From: Nocardioides nitrophenolicus
GTDB lineage: Bacteria; Actinomycetota; Actinomycetes; Propionibacteriales; Nocardioidaceae
Reading direction: 5' to 3'
NCBI RefSeq assembly: GCF_016907515.1
Contig: NZ_JAFBBY010000001.1
Span: 3,224,001-3,288,000, forward strand
Length of the DNA stretch: 64,000 nt
The translations under genes and the position numbers were made by a program. The notes under the pieces are model-generated. The model saw only the letters and a program-made list of their open reading frames with translations, was not told where the DNA came from and did not search any database. Each line of letters begins with the position of its first letter. The first letter of the stretch is position 1. Below, piece after piece: positions 25,802 through 57,102 of the stretch.

Positions 25802-25951
25802 TGTAACACGCAGTTCGCCGCTCTACCGGGCCCGAGACGTCGCGAAACCGCGCCCGTACGGGTCGGATACAGCCGGCACGGGGAGGGAAGGGCCGCGAAC
25901 GACGTGTTACAGCCGACGCGGGTCCGGGACACCAGCAGACTGCGTGTTACA
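25802..25951. repeat. Palindromic core-repeat array (TGTAACACGCAGT core)
   Basis: Three copies of TGTAACACG occur: one on the plus strand (25802-25810, extended to CAGT) and two on the minus strand reading from 25951 and 25911, exactly 40 bp apart. A degenerate TGTATCCG follows another 40 bp on, at 25871. The minus copies end in CGGC before the next unit. The first minus copy supplies the TAA stop of the TetR gene. The rest of the 25741-25946 intergenic stretch shows no gene. Confidence 0.65.
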
Positions 25952-27452: not shown

Positions 27453-27472
27453 GTCGGCGGGGTGGTTTCGCC

Positions 27473-27594
27473 GGGTGCAGGAATCGCCGGTTGACCGATT
27501 GTTCCTGCACTTGACGGGCTCTTCTTGCACTTGACGGGCGTTGCAACGGCCGACAAGTGACGGTTTCGCCGGTCGACCGGCGATTCCGTCACCC
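27473..27594. repeat. Palindromic core-repeat array (GGAATCGCCGG core)
   Basis: The outer arms are 25 bp (27473-27497 and 27570-27594) and match at 22 positions when one is reversed; the core is GGAATCGCCGGT-Y-GACCG. Between them are two direct copies of TTGCACTTGACGGGC-like sequence (27505 and 27525 regions), then ACAAGTGACGG. The array fills most of the 304-bp gap between the HTH gene and bS22. No gene is seen; 27595-27743 shows no other structure that I recognise. Confidence 0.6.
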
Positions 27595-27756
27595 GGCTGA
27601 GCCCCCGAGTCCCGCGGTGCGATCTTCATCCCATCTCCCGCGCTGATTCACCGCGCTCACGAGCCTGCGGATAGGCTGACCCGGTGCTCCGGGGTCCCCG
27701 GGGCGTCGTACGTCACGCCGAGCGCCACCGCGCCCGGCGCTCTGGAGAGGTTCCAC

Positions 27757-28964: not shown

Positions 28965-30141
28965 CGCCGAGATCATCCCGATCGGCACCCGCGGCCAGCC
29001 CGGCCGCGGCACCGGCAAGCGGCCCTCGGCCGCGGCCCGCGGGCTCGCGCCCAAGGCCAGTACGCCGCGCAAGACTCCGGCCAAGAAGCCGGCTCCGAAG
29101 GCCGAGCCCACTCCCGCGGCGGAGCCGCCGGTCGACGAGACCCCCGTGGTCGAGACGCCGTCCCTGCTCGACCCGCCCGCCGACGTACCCGAGGCGCCGC
29201 TGGTGGCGGCGGCCCGCACCCAGGAGCGTGGCGCGAGCCCGCTCACCGGGATCCCGGTGGGTGACTGGCTGGCCGGCTTCCAGCACGCCAGCAAGGAGCT
29301 GTTCGGCGAGCAGTGGGAGCCCCAGCTGGCCCGCTTCCTCGCGTTCCTGCGGCGCCGGGTGACCGGCGACTACACCGTCGACGAGTACGGCTTCGACGCC
29401 GAGGTGACCGAGCGCTTCTTCATGGCCGCGCTGCGGCCGGTGGCGCAGAAGTGGTTCCGGATCGAGGTCCGCGGCATCGAGAACATCCCGACCGAGGGCG
29501 GCGCCCTGGTCGTCTCCAACCACTCCGGCACCATCCCGGTCGACGGCCTGATGACGATGGTGTCGATCCACGACCACACCGGCCGGTTCCTGCGCCCGCT
29601 CGGCGCCGACCTGGTGTTCCGGCTGCCCGTGGTGGGCTCGGTGGCCCGCAAGGGCGGCGCCACCCTGGCCTGCAGCGAGGACGCCGAGCGGATGCTGCGT
29701 GGCGGCGAGCTGGTCGGCGTGTGGCCCGAGGGCTTCAAGGGGATCGGCAAGCCGTTCTCCGACCGCTACAAGCTGCAGCGCTTCGGGCGGGGCGGCTTCG
29801 TCTCGGCGGCGCTGCGCACCGGCGTCCCCATCGTGCCGCTGTCGGTGGTCGGCGCCGAGGAGATCTACCCGCTGGTCGGCAACATCCCGTCGCTGGCGAG
29901 GCTGCTCGGGGTGCCCTACATCCCGATCACACCGTTCTTCCCGCTGCTCGGCCCGCTCGGGCTGGTGCCGCTCCCGTCGAAGTGGCTGCTGGAGTTCGGC
30001 GAGCCGATCCGCACCGACGAGTACGACGACGGCGCGGCCGAGGACCCGATGCTGGTGTTCAACGTGACCGACCAGGTCCGCGAGACCATCCAGCAGACGC
30101 TCTACAGCCTGCTCATGCAGCGGGAGTCGGTCTTCCGCTGA
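28957..30141 (+). CDS. PlsC-family lysophospholipid acyltransferase
   Basis: 394 residues. The first ~95 residues are a low-complexity Ala/Pro/Lys region. The acyltransferase domain (about 165-385) has SNHSGTIPVD (His189 ... Asp196) where the family normally has HX4D; here six residues separate His and Asp. VWPEGFKGIGKPFSDRYKLQRFGRGGF matches the glycerol-phosphate-binding block. It is probably a membrane-surface enzyme of phospholipid or glycolipid assembly; the counterpart Rv0502 sits in the same place in M. tuberculosis. Its start lies within the end of the epimerase gene. Confidence 0.85.
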   Translation: MADAEIIPIGTRGQPGRGTGKRPSAAARGLAPKASTPRKTPAKKPAPKAEPTPAAEPPVDETPVVETPSLLDPPADVPEAPLVAAARTQERGASPLTGIPVGDWLAGFQHASKELFGEQWEPQLARFLAFLRRRVTGDYTVDEYGFDAEVTERFFMAALRPVAQKWFRIEVRGIENIPTEGGALVVSNHSGTIPVDGLMTMVSIHDHTGRFLRPLGADLVFRLPVVGSVARKGGATLACSEDAERMLRGGELVGVWPEGFKGIGKPFSDRYKLQRFGRGGFVSAALRTGVPIVPLSVVGAEEIYPLVGNIPSLARLLGVPYIPITPFFPLLGPLGLVPLPSKWLLEFGEPIRTDEYDDGAAEDPMLVFNVTDQVRETIQQTLYSLLMQRESVFR

Positions 30142-37317: not shown

Positions 37318-38333
37318 GCCTGCGCATCGGCACCCGCCGCAGCCTGCTGGCGACCACCCAGTCCGGCCACGTCGCCGCCGCCCTCCAGGCGCTCGGCGGC
37401 GCCACCGAGCTGGTCGAGATCACCACCGACGGCGACCGCAGCCAGGCCAGCGGGGCCTCGCTCGTGGGCGTGCCGTCGACCGGGGTGTTCGTCAGCGCGC
37501 TGCGCGACGCGCTGCTCGCGGGCGAGGTCGACGTCGCCGTCCACTCGCTCAAGGACCTCCCGACCTACGCCACCGACGGCATCGCGCTGGCCGCCGTACC
37601 TCCGCGCGAGGACCCGCGCGACGTCGTCGTCGCCCGCGACGGGCTCACCCTCGGCGAGCTGCCCCCGGGCAGCAAGGTCGCCACCGGCTCCCCGCGCCGC
37701 GTCGCGCAGATCGAGGCGCTCGGCCTCGGCGTCGAGCTGGTCGCGGTCCGCGGCAACGTCGACACCCGGATCGGCCGGATCGCCGAGGGCCGCTACGACG
37801 CCGTCGTGCTCGCCCGCGCCGGCCTGGCCCGGCTCGGCCGGCTCGACGAGGTCACCGAGGTGCTCGACCCGCTCCAGGTGCTCCCGGCCCCCGGCCAAGG
37901 CGCCCTGGCCGTCGAGTGCCGGGCCGACGACACCGAGACCCTCGCGCTGCTCGCCCGGCTCGACGACCCCGGCACCCGCGCCGCCGTCACCGCCGAGCGC
38001 ACCCTGATGGCCACCCTCGAGGGCGGCTGCGCCGCTCCGATCGGCGCCCTCGCCGAGGTCGCCGAGGGCGACGACGGCCCCGAGCTGTGGCTGCGGGCCG
38101 TCGTACTGAGCGAGGACGGCGGGCTCGCCGTACGCCGCTCGGCGTCGGCCGAGCTGGGCGCCGATCCCGCCTCCTGGCCCGACTCCGCCGCCAAGCTCGG
38201 CGGCGACCTCGGCGCCGAGATGCTCGCCGACGGTGGCGCCGAGCTGATGGCCGAGCTGCGTGACGCGCAGTCCACCACCCCCGAACCGAACGACCCCCCG
38301 TCCGCACGATCTGCAGAGGTGCACAACCCATGA
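37314..38333 (+). CDS. hemC: Porphobilinogen deaminase (hydroxymethylbilane synthase)
   Basis: HemC joins four porphobilinogens into hydroxymethylbilane. 339 residues: LRIGTRRSLLATTQSGHVA, HSLKDLPTY, VATGSPRRVAQ, VRGNVDTRIGR and the dipyrromethane-cofactor Cys239 in LEGGCAAPIG. The final ~50 residues (after GAEMLADGGAELM) are a flexible tail. It overlaps hemA and the cobA/hemD gene by 4 bp each. Confidence 0.96.
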   Translation: MSLRIGTRRSLLATTQSGHVAAALQALGGATELVEITTDGDRSQASGASLVGVPSTGVFVSALRDALLAGEVDVAVHSLKDLPTYATDGIALAAVPPREDPRDVVVARDGLTLGELPPGSKVATGSPRRVAQIEALGLGVELVAVRGNVDTRIGRIAEGRYDAVVLARAGLARLGRLDEVTEVLDPLQVLPAPGQGALAVECRADDTETLALLARLDDPGTRAAVTAERTLMATLEGGCAAPIGALAEVAEGDDGPELWLRAVVLSEDGGLAVRRSASAELGADPASWPDSAAKLGGDLGAEMLADGGAELMAELRDAQSTTPEPNDPPSARSAEVHNP

Positions 38334-40000
38334 CGCGAGCCACGACAGCCAAGGCTGCTTCGACTCCCGCCGCCGCCCAGGTCCACCCCGGAGGCCCCGG
38401 CTTCACGGCCTTCGTCGGAACCGGCCCCGGCGACCCCGACCTGCTCACCGTGCGCGCCGTCAGGCTGATCGAGGACGCCGACGTGGTCATCACCGAGGAG
38501 CCCGGTCACGCCGACCTGGTCGCCGTGGTGCGGGCCCGGGCCGAGCAGGTCGGCGACGAGCCGGCCCCCGACCCGGAGATCATCGACGGCGGCTTCGGCG
38601 AGGACGGCCAGCCGCTCACCCACGCCGCCCGCGCGAAGGTCGTCGTCAAGCAGGCCAAGCGCGGCCTGCGCGTGGTGCGCCTCCTCGGCGGCGACCCCTT
38701 CCTCTACGCGTCCGGTCCGGAGGAGGCCCAGGCGGTCGCCAAGGCCGGTCTCGCGTTCGAGGTCGTCCCGGGGGTCTCCTCGGTCGGCGCCGTCCCGGCG
38801 TACGCCGGCATCCCGCTCACCACCAAGGACCACCGTGAGGTGGCCGTGGTGACCTGCGGCGACAAGGTCGACTGGACCCGGTACGCCGACACCCCGACCC
38901 TGGTGCTGCTCTCCGCCGTCGGCCAGATCGGCGACATCGCCAAGCAGCTCATCGCCATCGGCCGCTCGCCGCAGACCCCCGTCGCCATGACCCGGGTCGG
39001 CACCACCACCGAGCAGGAGACGATCACCTCCACGCTCGAGCACATCGCCGCCGACGCCCGGGCCGCCCGGATCGCGCCGCCGGCGATCACCGTCATCGGC
39101 GCCGTCGTCGACCTGCGCGAGAAGCTGTCCTGGTTCGAGACCAAGCCGCTGTTCGGCTGGCGGGTGCTGGTCCCGCGCACCAAGGAGCAGTCCGCGTCGC
39201 TGTCGAACCGGATCCGCGAGTTCGGCGGCGTCCCGGAGGAGGTCCCCACGATCTCCGTCGAGCCGCCGCGCAACCCGCAGCAGATGGACAAGGCGGTCCG
39301 CGGCCTCGTCGAGGGCCGCTACGAGTGGATCGCGTTCACCTCGGTGAACGCGGTGAAGGCGGTCCGCGAGAAGTTCGAGGAGTACGGCCTCGACGCGCGT
39401 GCCTTCTCCGGCCTCAAGATCGCCGCCGTCGGCGAGAAGACCGCCCAGGCGATCGCCGACTGGGGCCTGCGCGCCGACCTCGTCCCCTCGGGCGAGCAGT
39501 CCGCCGCCGGCCTCCTCGAGGACTGGCCCGAGTACGACGAGCAGCTGGACCCGATCAACCGGGTCTTCCTGCCGCGTGCCGACATCGCCACCGAGAACCT
39601 CGTCGCCGGCCTGATCGACCTCGGCTGGGAGTGCGACGACGTCACGGCGTACCGCACCGTCCGGGCCGCCCCGCCGCCGGCGCCGACCCGCGACGCGATC
39701 AAGACCGGCAAGTTCGACGCCGTCGTGTTCACGTCGTCCTCGACCGTGCGCAACCTGGTCGGCATCGCCGGCAAGCCGCACCCGTCGACGATCATCGCGG
39801 TGATCGGGCCCGCCACGGCCAAGACGGCGGAGGAGCACGGGCTGCGGGTCGACGTACTGGCTCCGAAGCCGGACGTCGAGCTGCTCGTCGAGGCGCTCGC
39901 CGGCTTCGGCGCCAGCCGCCGGGCCGCGATGCTGGAGGCCGGCGAGCCGGTCACCAAGCCGAGCGACCGCAAGCCGTCGGCTCGTCGTCGGAAGGCCTGA
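38330..40000 (+). CDS. hemD: Fused uroporphyrinogen-III methyltransferase/uroporphyrinogen-III synthase
   Basis: 556 residues in two enzymes. Residues ~20-265 form the SUMT (CobA) domain: FVGTGPGDPDLLTVRA, LLGGDPFLYAS, VPGVSSVGAVPAYAGIPLT, MTRVGTTTEQETI, PAITVIGAVVDLR. Residues ~280-545 form the HemD synthase, which closes and inverts ring D: VLVPRTKEQSASLSNRIREFGG, WIAFTSVNAVKAVREKF, VFTSSSTVRNLVGIAG. The fusion links heme to siroheme/cobalamin precursors and is usual in actinobacterial hem operons. Its TGA stop is the first part of the repeat array that begins at 39999. Confidence 0.95.
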   Translation: MTRATTAKAASTPAAAQVHPGGPGFTAFVGTGPGDPDLLTVRAVRLIEDADVVITEEPGHADLVAVVRARAEQVGDEPAPDPEIIDGGFGEDGQPLTHAARAKVVVKQAKRGLRVVRLLGGDPFLYASGPEEAQAVAKAGLAFEVVPGVSSVGAVPAYAGIPLTTKDHREVAVVTCGDKVDWTRYADTPTLVLLSAVGQIGDIAKQLIAIGRSPQTPVAMTRVGTTTEQETITSTLEHIAADARAARIAPPAITVIGAVVDLREKLSWFETKPLFGWRVLVPRTKEQSASLSNRIREFGGVPEEVPTISVEPPRNPQQMDKAVRGLVEGRYEWIAFTSVNAVKAVREKFEEYGLDARAFSGLKIAAVGEKTAQAIADWGLRADLVPSGEQSAAGLLEDWPEYDEQLDPINRVFLPRADIATENLVAGLIDLGWECDDVTAYRTVRAAPPPAPTRDAIKTGKFDAVVFTSSSTVRNLVGIAGKPHPSTIIAVIGPATAKTAEEHGLRVDVLAPKPDVELLVEALAGFGASRRAAMLEAGEPVTKPSDRKPSARRRKA

Positions 40001-40140
40001 CCCGGCAGAAAGTGGTTCTGGGTTCGCGCTGACCCGGCAGAAAGTGGCTCAAAGCAGAGCCAGTTTCTGCCGGGTCGGCGTCTTCCGGGAGCTACTTTCT
40101 GCCGGGTCGGCGCAATTCGAGAGCCAGTTTGTGCCGGGTC
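39999..40140. repeat. Palindromic core-repeat array (GACCCGGCAGAAAGTGGCTC core)
   Basis: Five copies of a 20-bp core: plus strand at 39999-40018 and 40031-40050; minus strand at 40057-40076, 40089-40108 and 40121-40140. Copies in one orientation are spaced at exactly 32 bp, with a 12-bp variable tail that tends to end in GCGCC/T. The two orientations face each other across AAAGCA (40051-40056), which makes a long hairpin possible. The first copy begins in the hemD stop codon. Confidence 0.8.
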
Positions 40141-40195
40141 GGTGCAACCTGGGGGCGTGGTCACCACGTTGGGTCCGTCATGGAGCGGATGACCG

Positions 40196-40720
40196 ATGCG
40201 TGACGAGGACGAGTTCGTCGCCTTCGCCCAGGGGGCGCGCGACCGGCTGCGCCGGACGGCGTACCTGCTGTGCGGTGACTGGGACCGGGCGGCGGACCAC
40301 GTCCAGGACGCCCTGATCCGGGTGTACGTCGCGTGGCCGCGGCTGACCCGGGCCGGGCGCGAGTACGCCTATGCCCGCCGGGCGCTGGTGAGCGTGGTGC
40401 TCGACCACGCGCGGCGCCGGTCGAGCACCGAGCTGGTCGTCGAGGCCGACCACCAGCGGCCGGACGGGATCGACGTCGCCGAGCTGGTGAGTGCCCGGGA
40501 GACGCTGCTCGCCGTGATGGCAGAGCTGCCGCCGCGACAGCGGGCCTGTGTGGTGCTGCGCTACTTCGACGACCTCAGCGTCGCCGACACCGCGAAGGCG
40601 CTGGGCTGCAGCGAGGGCACCGTGAAGAGCCAGACCGCCCGGGCGCTTGACCGGCTCCGCTCCGTGTTCGAGGACTCGTCGCTCGGCGAGATGACCCTGG
40701 GAGGAATGCGGACATGGTGA
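40196..40720 (+). CDS. ECF sigma factor, SigE-like family
   Basis: 174 residues: region 2 (FVAFAQGARDRLRRTAYLLCGDWDRAADHVQDALIRVYVAWPRL) and region 4 (MAELPPRQRACVVLRYFDDLSVADTAKALGCSEGTVKSQTARALDRLR). It belongs to the short actinobacterial SigE-like group often followed by a membrane protein with a propeller domain. GGAG lies about 10 nt before the ATG. The next gene overlaps it by 7 bp and is a probable regulator. The 55-bp gap between the repeat array and the start holds its promoter region. Confidence 0.88.
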   Translation: MRDEDEFVAFAQGARDRLRRTAYLLCGDWDRAADHVQDALIRVYVAWPRLTRAGREYAYARRALVSVVLDHARRRSSTELVVEADHQRPDGIDVAELVSARETLLAVMAELPPRQRACVVLRYFDDLSVADTAKALGCSEGTVKSQTARALDRLRSVFEDSSLGEMTLGGMRTW

Positions 40721-51082: not shown

Positions 51083-51109
51083 GCTGATCGGTCTGCTGGC
51101 TCGGCATTC

Positions 51110-51191
51110 ATCACGGGATGTAGCCGAACCGGAGCTTCTGTAGCGGAACCCCGCTACAGAAGTGGGGATTCGCCTACATCCCGTGATGAAT
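51110..51191. repeat. Nested palindrome with TGTAGC-GAACC repeats
   Basis: Outer arms of 23 bp (51107-51129 region and its complement ending at 51191) match except one base. An inner 12-bp perfect stem, CTTCTGTAGCGG (51134-51145) with its complement, has a loop of a few bases. TGTAGC-S-GAACC occurs twice as a direct repeat, at 51119 and 51139 (20 bp apart). It lies between the DUF4229 and menA 3' ends and could act as a bidirectional terminator. Confidence 0.75.
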
Positions 51192-55507: not shown

Positions 55508-57102
55508 CCGACAGCTCGTTCGCGCTCGCGGAGGCCCTCGTCGCCCGGCTCCGGCGTGCCGGCGTGACCGAGGTCGTGGTGGCTCCCGGCTCCCGCAATG
55601 CTCCGGTGGCGATGGCGCTGTGGGCGGCGGCGCAGGCCGGCGTACTCCGGCTGCACACGCGCATCGACGAGCGCACCGCCGGCTTCCTCGCTCTGGGGCT
55701 GACCAGGTCGGGAGCGCGCGCGGCCGTGCTGACCACCTCCGGCACCGCCGTCGCCAACCTGCATCCCGCCGTCCTCGAGGCGGCGCACGCCGGCATCGGC
55801 CTGGTCGTCGTCTCCGCCGACCGGCCGGCCCGGCTGCGTCGTACCGGCGCCAACCAGACCACCGACCAGGTCGGCATCTTCGGCCCCCTGGTCCCCACCC
55901 ACGACCTCACCTCGGTGGCGGAGGTGGCCGCCGTACCCGCTGCGTGGGACTCGGTGGTCCACCTCAACCTGCAGCTCGACGCTCCGCTGGTGCCGCCCGT
56001 CCCCCGCGCATCTGACGAATGGGCTGTCATCTCGCCCGATTCGCAGCCCATTCGTCAGATGCGCGAGAAGAACCCGCTCGCCCCGGGACCCCGGACCGTG
56101 GTGGTGGCCGGGGACAGCGCCGGGCCGCCCGCCCGCCGGCTCGCCGAGGACGCCGGCTGGCCCCTGCTGGCCGAGCCGTCGAGCGGCGCGCGGACCGGTG
56201 AGAACGCGCTGCGCACCTACCGGCTGCTGCTCGGCACCGAGCTCGGCGCGTCGATCGAGCGGGTCGTGGTGTTCGGCCGGCCGACCCTGTCCCGGCCGGT
56301 CACCCGGCTGCTCGAGCGAGCCGACGTCGAGGTGCTGGTGGTCCCGGGGCCCGGCGTCTGGCCGGTCCGGCCCCCTGGCTCCACCACGGTCGACGGCCCC
56401 ACCTGGTCCGGCGCACCCGACGACCCGGCCTGGCTCGGCGCCTGGCGCGAGGCCGACCGCGAGCTGGGGCGCCGGCTCGACCGCCTCCTCGCCGAGCAGC
56501 CCGCCCTCACGCCGTACGACGTCGCCGCGGCCACCCACGCCGCCCTGCCCGCCGGCGGCCTGCTCGTCGTCGGCGCCTCCAGCCCGATCCGCGACCTCGA
56601 CCTGATGCTCCGCCCGCCGGCCGTCGGCACCCGGCGCAAGGTGGTCGCCAACCGCGGTCTCGCCGGCATCGACGGCACCATCAGCACCGCCATCGGCGCC
56701 GCACTGGGCCGCCCCGACGGCACCCGGAACCTCGCCCTGATGGGCGACCTGACCTTCCTGCACGACCAGACCGCGCTCGTGCTCGGACCCGACGAGCCGC
56801 GCCCCGACCTGACGATCGTCGTACCGAACGACGACGGGGGCGCCATCTTCTCGATGCTGGAGCAGGGCGCACCCGAGCACGCCGCCTCCTTCGAGCGGCT
56901 CTTCGGCACCCCCCACGGTCACGACCTCGCGGCGCTCTGCGCCGCCGCCCGGGTCCCGCACCTGCGGGTCGGCTCGCGCCCCGAGCTGGAGCAGGCGCTC
57001 GCCAGCCCCAACGGCGGCATCGAGGTCGTCGAGGCCGTCGTGTCCCGGGCCGGGCGACGCGAGCTGGACCTGCGGATCCGCGGGCTCGCCGAGGCCACCT
57101 AG
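55504..57102 (+). CDS. menD: SEPHCHC synthase MenD, with an in-frame palindromic insert
   Basis: MenD, a thiamine-diphosphate enzyme, joins 2-oxoglutarate and isochorismate. 532 residues: VVAPGSRNAPVAMALW at the start, GTAVANLHPAVLEA, and the ThDP-binding GDLTFLHDQTALVL...VVPNDDGGAIFSML. At residues ~168-188, between the Pyr domain (ending LNLQLDAPLVPPVP) and the central domain (LAPGPRTVVVAGD), the DNA at 56005-56065 is a 22-bp perfect inverted repeat with a 17-nt loop and no stop codon. It encodes a hydrophilic linker (ASDEWAVISPDSQPIRQMR). The linker place makes loss of activity unlikely. Confidence 0.92.
   Translation: MTDSSFALAEALVARLRRAGVTEVVVAPGSRNAPVAMALWAAAQAGVLRLHTRIDERTAGFLALGLTRSGARAAVLTTSGTAVANLHPAVLEAAHAGIGLVVVSADRPARLRRTGANQTTDQVGIFGPLVPTHDLTSVAEVAAVPAAWDSVVHLNLQLDAPLVPPVPRASDEWAVISPDSQPIRQMREKNPLAPGPRTVVVAGDSAGPPARRLAEDAGWPLLAEPSSGARTGENALRTYRLLLGTELGASIERVVVFGRPTLSRPVTRLLERADVEVLVVPGPGVWPVRPPGSTTVDGPTWSGAPDDPAWLGAWREADRELGRRLDRLLAEQPALTPYDVAAATHAALPAGGLLVVGASSPIRDLDLMLRPPAVGTRRKVVANRGLAGIDGTISTAIGAALGRPDGTRNLALMGDLTFLHDQTALVLGPDEPRPDLTIVVPNDDGGAIFSMLEQGAPEHAASFERLFGTPHGHDLAALCAAARVPHLRVGSRPELEQALASPNGGIEVVEAVVSRAGRRELDLRIRGLAEAT
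56005..56065. repeat. Perfect 22-bp palindrome inside menD
   Basis: Arms CGCGCATCTGACGAATGGGCTG (56005-56026, last bases given as position range) and its exact complement (56044-56065) enclose a 17-nt loop. The loop begins TCATCTCGCCCGATTCG, an imperfect direct repeat of the left arm 19 bp on. The element keeps the menD frame. It shares the direct-plus-inverted design of the arrays at 25.8, 27.5, 40.0 and 51.1 kb. Confidence 0.85.

Follow-up and report, generated by a model that had tools for sequence, protein, structure and literature searches.

Extragenic repeats are common; to our knowledge, a known partner protein for them is rare, and RAYT is the known case. As described in PMC3733652, the REP, BIME and REPIN sequences and their RAYT resemble the arrays reported here in several respects: they comprise short extragenic units in direct and inverted orientation, lie at 3' ends and between convergent genes, are genome-specific, and flank the gene of their own enzyme. 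A second parallel is the AbiE type IV toxin-antitoxin system (AbiEi, Rv2827c), whose DNA-binding domain is related to that of the protein discussed below. According to PMC7319586, two monomers of the Streptococcus AbiEi occupy two inverted repeats of 23 bp close to the gene that encodes it, Rv2827c binds four, and both autoregulate via repeats upstream of their genes. The DNA uptake sequence dialects of the Neisseriaceae are alike in that many short sites occur in species dialects (PMC3630211). Here we describe a repeat family of Nocardioides nitrophenolicus (genome G000; 5,815,017 bp, one contig), its counterparts in related genomes, and a protein gene with which such arrays are associated.

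The hemD array and its dispersed family

In the 64,000-nucleotide stretch of N. nitrophenolicus DNA that was analysed (the window), positions 39999-40140 hold five 20-bp units of GACCCGGCAGAAAGTGGCTC with 0 to 2 mismatches, two forward and then three reversed (Table 1). Spacing is exactly 32 bp within each orientation, and the facing inner units are 6 bp apart. This is the layout given in the original prediction, which had also correctly placed the array start inside a stop codon: unit 1 opens with GA, which also closes the TGA at 39998-40000. The gene that ends there is taken to be hemD, as in that prediction. The five GACCCGGCAGAAAGTGGCTC matches in the window compare with a mean of 0 in 100 window shuffles. 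Unit 5 shares its TTTGTGCCGGGTCGGTGCAACCTGG end with the rightmost units of the arrays that follow hemD in G198 and N. carbamazepini. No Rfam family matched anywhere in the window at the gathering score.

Table 1. Features of the hemD locus (window positions) and the partner gene (genome position)
Feature	Position	Strand	Remarks
Unit 1	39999..40018	+	1 mismatch to the genome core; GA inside the hemD stop codon
12-bp spacer	40019..40030	+	7 weakly conserved positions and a GCGCC-like end; fixed length, variable sequence
Unit 2	40031..40050	+	exact core
Central hairpin (predicted)	40031..40076	.	the two inner units, which face each other, pair around a 6-nt loop; such pairs covary over 54 arrays from several genomes
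Unit 3	40057..40076	-	1 mismatch
Unit 4	40089..40108	-	1 mismatch
Unit 5, outermost	40121..40140	-	2 mismatches
hemD-containing gene	38330..40000	+	array starts in its stop codon
ECF-type sigma factor gene	40196..40720	+	downstream of the array; gene order tandem, not convergent
Partner gene	G000:C1:4794722-4795690	minus	323 aa; AbiEi winged-helix and REase_MTES_1575-like domain

Genome-wide, the GACCCGGCAGAAAGTGGCTC core occurs in 187 copies (92 + 95) at no more than 3 mismatches, while the reversed-pattern control gave 0. Detailed reading of 327 kb of this genome, covering 160 of the 187 copies, delineated 40 arrays. Thirty-four of these are facing, all in forward-then-reverse order, and six are one-sided, one of which (L069) has degenerate facing copies. 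Same-strand spacing was 32 bp in 115 of 117 cases, the others being one of 31 and one of 33 bp. Each unit consists of a near-invariant outer half, GACCCGGC, and an inner half near AGAAA[GC]T[GA]GC[TC]C, after which come seven bases of weak conservation and a GCGCC-like end. Since the spacing is constant while these seven bases are weakly conserved, the spacer is fixed in length and not in sequence. Judged on array layout, the facing orientation of 34 of the 40 arrays and the 12-bp spacers agree with the earlier view that this is not a CRISPR, for which the array had been called too short. No intrinsic terminator (GC stem plus U-tract) was found in 39700-40500, in line with the claim that the array is not a simple terminator.

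The arrays have a marked preference for 3' ends. By a simple codon-usage gene finder trained on the genome's own codons, 28 of the 40 arrays have convergent genes on their two sides and none has divergent ones. Among 270 other neighbouring gene pairs in the same DNA, 32 are convergent and 64 divergent. Many arrays start a few bases from a stop codon, as at hemD. Three one-sided arrays point downstream from the stop codon that they abut (two at L071, one at L075); for those at L059, L069 and L076 the direction relative to the stop is ambiguous. With the same gene finder, still trained on N. nitrophenolicus codons, the 17 arrays read in G310, a genome of another genus in the same family, and in Nocardioides sp. 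CFH 31398 were found to be convergent in ten cases, tandem in five and divergent in two.

The original prediction had grouped the hemD array with loci at 25.8, 27.5, 51.1 and 56.0 kb of the window as one design with a different core at each locus. This five-locus class was rejected: the other four loci fall outside it, being inverted repeats without the fixed-period facing design, and a scan of the window for that design returned the hemD array, backed by 28 pairs, plus a lone weak match at 29595-29668. Within this genome the arrays instead have one fixed dispersed core, an outcome that the prediction itself had named as its refutation; between genomes the idea of one design with different cores does hold, as set out in the next section.

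The 25.8-kb locus and part of the 27.5-kb locus belong to other dispersed families. TGTAACACGCAGT, followed ~97 bp further on by its reverse, makes up a second dispersed family of inverted repeats, which occurs at 25802-25951 of the window, at L052 1067-1176 and at L058 7238-7347, and a related TGTAACTAAGTGTTACA repeat follows hemD in N. daeguensis at the position of the N. nitrophenolicus array. A third, palindromic family built on GCCGGTCGACCGGC occurs at 27461-27606 of the window, where it lies beside a two-copy 20-bp tandem repeat, and at L058 2368, L068 2301 and L069 5982. The loci at 51106-51191 and 56005-56065 are large single hairpins, with 41-nt arms that are 85% complementary and perfect 22-nt arms, respectively, and had no further copies in the 327 kb of own-genome DNA.

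Shared positions and lineage dialects in relatives

The hemD-region proteins of Nocardioides daeguensis 2C1-5 and Pimelobacter simplex 3E show 98% identity to that of N. nitrophenolicus. We read the hemD locus in 24 relatives and found an array of the same layout after hemD in N. carbamazepini and Nocardioides sp. LHD-245, with GCAGATTGA as the inner half; in N. daeguensis and P. simplex 3E the end pieces alone remain. Other repeat families occur near hemD in relatives, at L087 5637-5734 (Pimelobacter simplex ATCC 6946), L152 6739-6980 and L105 7186-7381; they comprise palindromic GGCAGTTTCACCGCC at 62 bp, CGTCATACGAA pairs at 62-63 bp and a 50-bp tandem repeat.

The N. nitrophenolicus core had a match in 61 of 215 genus genomes; five, N. 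nitrophenolicus included, hold 17-187 copies and the others 0-4. A near one-genome element, as suggested by matches in 3 of 116 genomes at 2 mismatches (own included), was overturned by this full 215-genome search. At least 14 pairs of GACCCGGC heads 32 bp apart were found in 15 of the 215 genus genomes, with 153 in N. nitrophenolicus, versus 0-5 for the reversed pattern. Beyond the genus, G310 has 24 such pairs, with inner half TCGAACCTCCCG, one g12 genome of the same family has 6, and genomes of the three other families searched have 0-2 each. Other Nocardioides and another genus carry facing or one-sided arrays with a period of 21/22 or 31/32 bp and unlike inner halves, often against stop codons. 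A strict de novo scan for the design, which replaced a loose one that gave many matches in coding regions, found 15 regions in 735 kb, several resting on 1-2 pairs, versus 0 in three shuffled copies. In random 20-kb stretches, at a support of at least 3, one facing array (32 bp) was found in 360 kb of Nocardioides DNA. Among random 20-kb stretches of other families (380 kb), one facing repeat with a 33-bp period was seen (L245 14860-15127), which could be coding.

Many of the relatives' arrays occupy the same places. Of 60 arrays from six relatives, 42 align to one of the 40 N. nitrophenolicus array loci used for comparison, a count that includes L191, credited from a separate array reading, and to which the remainder may add by matching other arrays of this genome. 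By genome the counts are 12/16 for G198, 11/15 for G197, 14/19 for G156, 3/5 for G149, 2/4 for G014 and 0/1 for G166; G197 and G198 are closely related and therefore not independent. At all six orthologous loci compared (three in G014, three in G149), the units differ from their home dialect at 2.0-3.7 of 12 positions and from the N. nitrophenolicus dialect at 5.7-8.2, in a comparison whose entry for the window is diluted by heads that occur by chance. The arrays are thus at shared loci but in the dialect of the home genome, which indicates concerted change among the arrays of one genome at unchanged positions. The search of relatives recommended in the original prediction recovered arrays at the same loci, with the inner half of the core differing by lineage.

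An AbiEi- and REase-like gene between arrays

Among the N. nitrophenolicus arrays read, one pair, >>> and <<<<<, about 1.1 kb apart, encloses a single gene; of these two, the <<<<< array starts 115 bp upstream of the gene. The same array-homologue-array arrangement is present in G156 and G310, and in both N. nitrophenolicus and G310 this is the only gene predicted between the flanking arrays. The N. nitrophenolicus protein matches AbiEi_4 (PF13338) at 3.3e-8, above the cut-off, and the PADLOC AbiEi model at 5.8e-12; it gave no NCBIfam match and no PDB sequence match. Of 37 homologues, 26 have an AbiEi_4 match. REase_MTES_1575 was matched by 29 of the 37 at E≤0.01 (best 9.3e-6), with the N. nitrophenolicus protein at 18.2 bits, below the Pfam cut-off of 38.2, and PF18741 is precomputed for 5 of 120 listed homologues. 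Residues D247, E258, E263, H265, D274 and R277 are invariant in the 37 aligned members. We presume these to be a PD-(D/E)XK motif, as would be expected of an active enzyme of that kind, and the invariance of such catalytic-type residues means that selection acts on the nuclease-like domain.

A homologue at E≤1e-40 is present in 157 of the 215 genus genomes. Among 48 non-duplicate loci, which are those of the best-scoring homologues among many more, tandem arrays (at least 6 repeat positions within 300 bp) lie on both sides of the gene in 40, on one side in six and on neither in two; by this criterion L332 passes on both sides, though it may be a palindrome, and L299 fails despite two forward heads. 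Of the two loci without any array, one holds the gene fragment of G167 and the other the second homologue of G310. When positions were drawn at random in 18 Nocardioides genomes, other than the homologue genomes, arrays were on both sides in 0 of 216 cases and on one side in 14 and 11. None of seven distant paralogues in N. nitrophenolicus has an array. The gene is in two pieces in G198 (G198:C1:1776635-1777593) and has one in-frame stop in G063 (G063:C1:936127-937077); intact homologues were seen elsewhere. G181 holds 17 core copies and has no homologue at E≤1e-15, and G167, with its gene fragment (L316), has 14 head pairs; both are below related genomes (81-187 copies), while G198 still has 93. 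The copies in G181 and G198 indicate that arrays can exist without an intact gene.

At 20 loci (L294-L297, L299, L300, L308, L312, L316, L319, L323, L324, L326, L329, L331, L334, L335, L337-L339) the gene or its remnant follows a gene ending in SRRKSGE(I/L)IF or alike, which we assume to be DUF4193-like. The cores at these loci differ between many genomes.

In most genomes compared, the cores that flank the gene match those dispersed in the same genome. In G013, the core at the gene flank (22-bp period) led to 60 + 101 = 161 dispersed copies in that genome, versus 8 in N. nitrophenolicus, 1 in G002, 2 in G003 and 0 in G010; one flank thus predicted these 161 dispersed copies. CFH 31398 has 80 + 104 copies of CGAGTCGGCACGTCTGCGCA genome-wide, and its third homologue is flanked by 4 + 2 exact copies, whereas its other homologue locus, which occurs twice and has the same flanks both times, has another core and 0 copies of CGAGTCGGCACGTCTGCGCA. 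When flank and dispersed dialects were compared in 12 genomes, 11 fitted their home dialect class best, with N. nitrophenolicus, G156, G197 and G198 counted as one class and the dispersed sets of G118, G064, G166, G310 and G261 drawn from 1-3 loci each. The G156 flank is at 3.3 from the N. nitrophenolicus consensus and at 3.7 from that of G156, the G118 flank fits the G149 consensus better than the six sampled units of G118, and the flanks of second paralogues (CFH 31398 a/b, G261b) match none of the sampled dispersed sets.

The period around the homologues is either 31/32 or 21/22 bp, one helical turn apart. Mapped onto a tree of 46 proteins, the 21/22 label requires at least four changes, and the G025 protein, 66% identical to that of N. 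nitrophenolicus, has period 21 inside the 32-bp clade. The two periods would be best accounted for by a row of DNA-bound proteins on one face of the helix.

Candidate roles and known systems

Taking the sequence evidence together, we consider it probable that the arrays are phased recognition sites of the AbiEi-REase protein, and that array and enzyme form a self-maintaining pair. Each unit of ~20 bp would be one protein-binding site, and the repeat binding of AbiEi and Rv2827c makes it plausible that such an asymmetric unit serves one monomer. Two or more units in a row, 22 or 32 bp apart, would present these sites on one helix face at two or three turns. Arrays usually point downstream from the stop codon of a gene, convergent genes yield facing arrays, and the inner pair probably forms a hairpin in the clade of N. 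nitrophenolicus. The outer half of the unit is conserved (GACCCGGC or GAGTCGGC); the inner half is specific to the lineage and shifts jointly in all arrays of one genome, also in those on either side of the gene of the protein. Nicking or cutting of the arrays by the putative nuclease, followed by repair or copying between units, could keep the dialect uniform, and 3' ends between convergent genes may be the sites where arrays do least harm. Such a logic of array and enzyme would be comparable to that of REP sequences and RAYT. Of this scheme, the dispersal, placement and phasing of the arrays, their concerted dialects, shared locations, association with the gene and matching cores are observed; protein binding, nuclease activity and the copying step are inferred. 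Several observations count against recognition sites: the MTES_1575 score of the N. nitrophenolicus protein is below the cut-off; eight of the 48 loci lack one or both arrays; G181 and G198 have arrays without an intact gene; two of 17 arrays are divergent; and the core matches of G118, G156 and the second paralogues are imperfect. The RNA-hairpin-like covariation of the inner pair, described below, also counts against this best explanation, as site recognition alone does not need it.

More tentatively, the arrays may constitute an undescribed class of repeats in which the AbiEi-REase gene is an autonomous array-gene-array cassette and the gene-less arrays, at some 40-50 places, are non-autonomous or maintained. 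The enzyme would then copy or rewrite the arrays, the dialect would follow the protein, and the period would jump by helical turns.

A serious rival is regulation without cutting, in which the protein is a repressor or insulator with an unused nuclease domain, the arrays are regulatory and those flanking the gene are autoregulatory operators. AbiEi and Rv2827c do autoregulate by repeat binding, according to PMC7319586, and the <<<<< array upstream of the N. nitrophenolicus gene would be suitably placed. However, the arrays of this genome are at 3' ends and never between divergent genes, where promoters are (although 2 of 17 are in G310 and CFH 31398), and the catalytic-type residues are invariant throughout the 37 homologues. 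We regard this account as doubtful.

The arrays could also be bidirectional terminators or 3'-end RNA hairpins between convergent genes, with the repeats merely supplying the stems. Their convergent 3'-end placement fits this, as does the RNA of 39996-40145, which folds to -108 kcal/mol (z -11.9). Further support comes from the innermost facing pair, which over 54 facing arrays from four genome groups (N. nitrophenolicus 23, G197 and G198 16, G156 12, G149 3) is identical at 9.72 of 12 positions, versus 9.04 (sd 0.13) when permuted, a value as high being reached in 0 of 5000 permutations. The second-level pairs, however, are less alike than expected by chance (54 pairs: 7.37, with 7.73 expected; p about 0.009), and the N. 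nitrophenolicus inner pairs by themselves are not significant (p 0.09, 23 pairs). From the covarying inner pair and the unlike second pairs, a structured array centre is likely in the clade of N. nitrophenolicus, with the outer units not kept for pairing. Moreover, one-sided arrays, as at L221, L223 and L279, cannot form such a hairpin, and of the nine CFH 31398 arrays with at least two units per side, seven have inner units whose starts lie 97-204 bp from each other. Since the region of the hemD array has no U-tract terminator either, and since this account leaves the dialects, the period and the flanked gene unexplained, it seems rather unlikely.

That the association of gene and arrays is a by-product of a shared neighbourhood between array-bearing genes is very improbable: 20 homologue loci do share one conserved place, after the SRRKSGE(I/L)IF-type gene, but the homologues of N. 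nitrophenolicus, G222, G024, G261 and G310 have other neighbours and arrays nonetheless, and where a genome has several homologues, their cores can differ, with one identical to the core found genome-wide. Least probable of all are ordinary REP/REPIN moved by RAYT, a Y1 transposase, since, although the arrays share with those described in PMC3733652 their dispersed and extragenic nature, their 3'-end and convergent placement and their genome-specific families, Y1_Tnp (PF01797) was found 0 times in the N. nitrophenolicus genome and in one of 215 genus genomes, that one 86%-complete.

The N. nitrophenolicus arrays do correspond to REP/REPIN in consisting of dispersed extragenic units with inverted pairs, and comparison by eye with tagged REP sequences shows a head, GCCGACCCGGC, that is a short imperfect palindrome; the GTAG/CGTC tag was not seen in the unit. 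They differ in having an exact period of 21/22 or 31/32 bp and in that their locations are common between species while the core is rewritten. The enzyme also differs, as it combines an AbiEi winged helix-turn-helix with an MTES_1575-like domain and is not a Y1 transposase. Unlike in AbiE, the C-terminal part of this protein matches a restriction-endonuclease-like domain, and the sites are genome-wide. DNA uptake sequences form inverted pairs at terminators; they are single sites that are not known to form fixed-period arrays and have a pilin as their receptor, whereas the arrays described here have a fixed period. The ends of Tn7-like transposons present several transposase sites in facing groups around a nuclease-type gene. 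In contrast, the AbiEi-REase gene is the only one predicted between the arrays in N. nitrophenolicus and G310, and the gene-less arrays stay at orthologous loci. A search of the open-licence literature gave no account of AbiEi with such repeats. The data point to an undescribed repeat-plus-protein system. If true, this would be a second, unrelated pairing of repeat and protein, here a DNA-binding, nuclease-like one, so that such partnerships would have had more than one origin. With many dialects, two periods and homologues that have separate cores in one genome, the joint change of a protein and hundreds of its sites can be tested directly, and this variation would provide many naturally matched pairs of protein and site.
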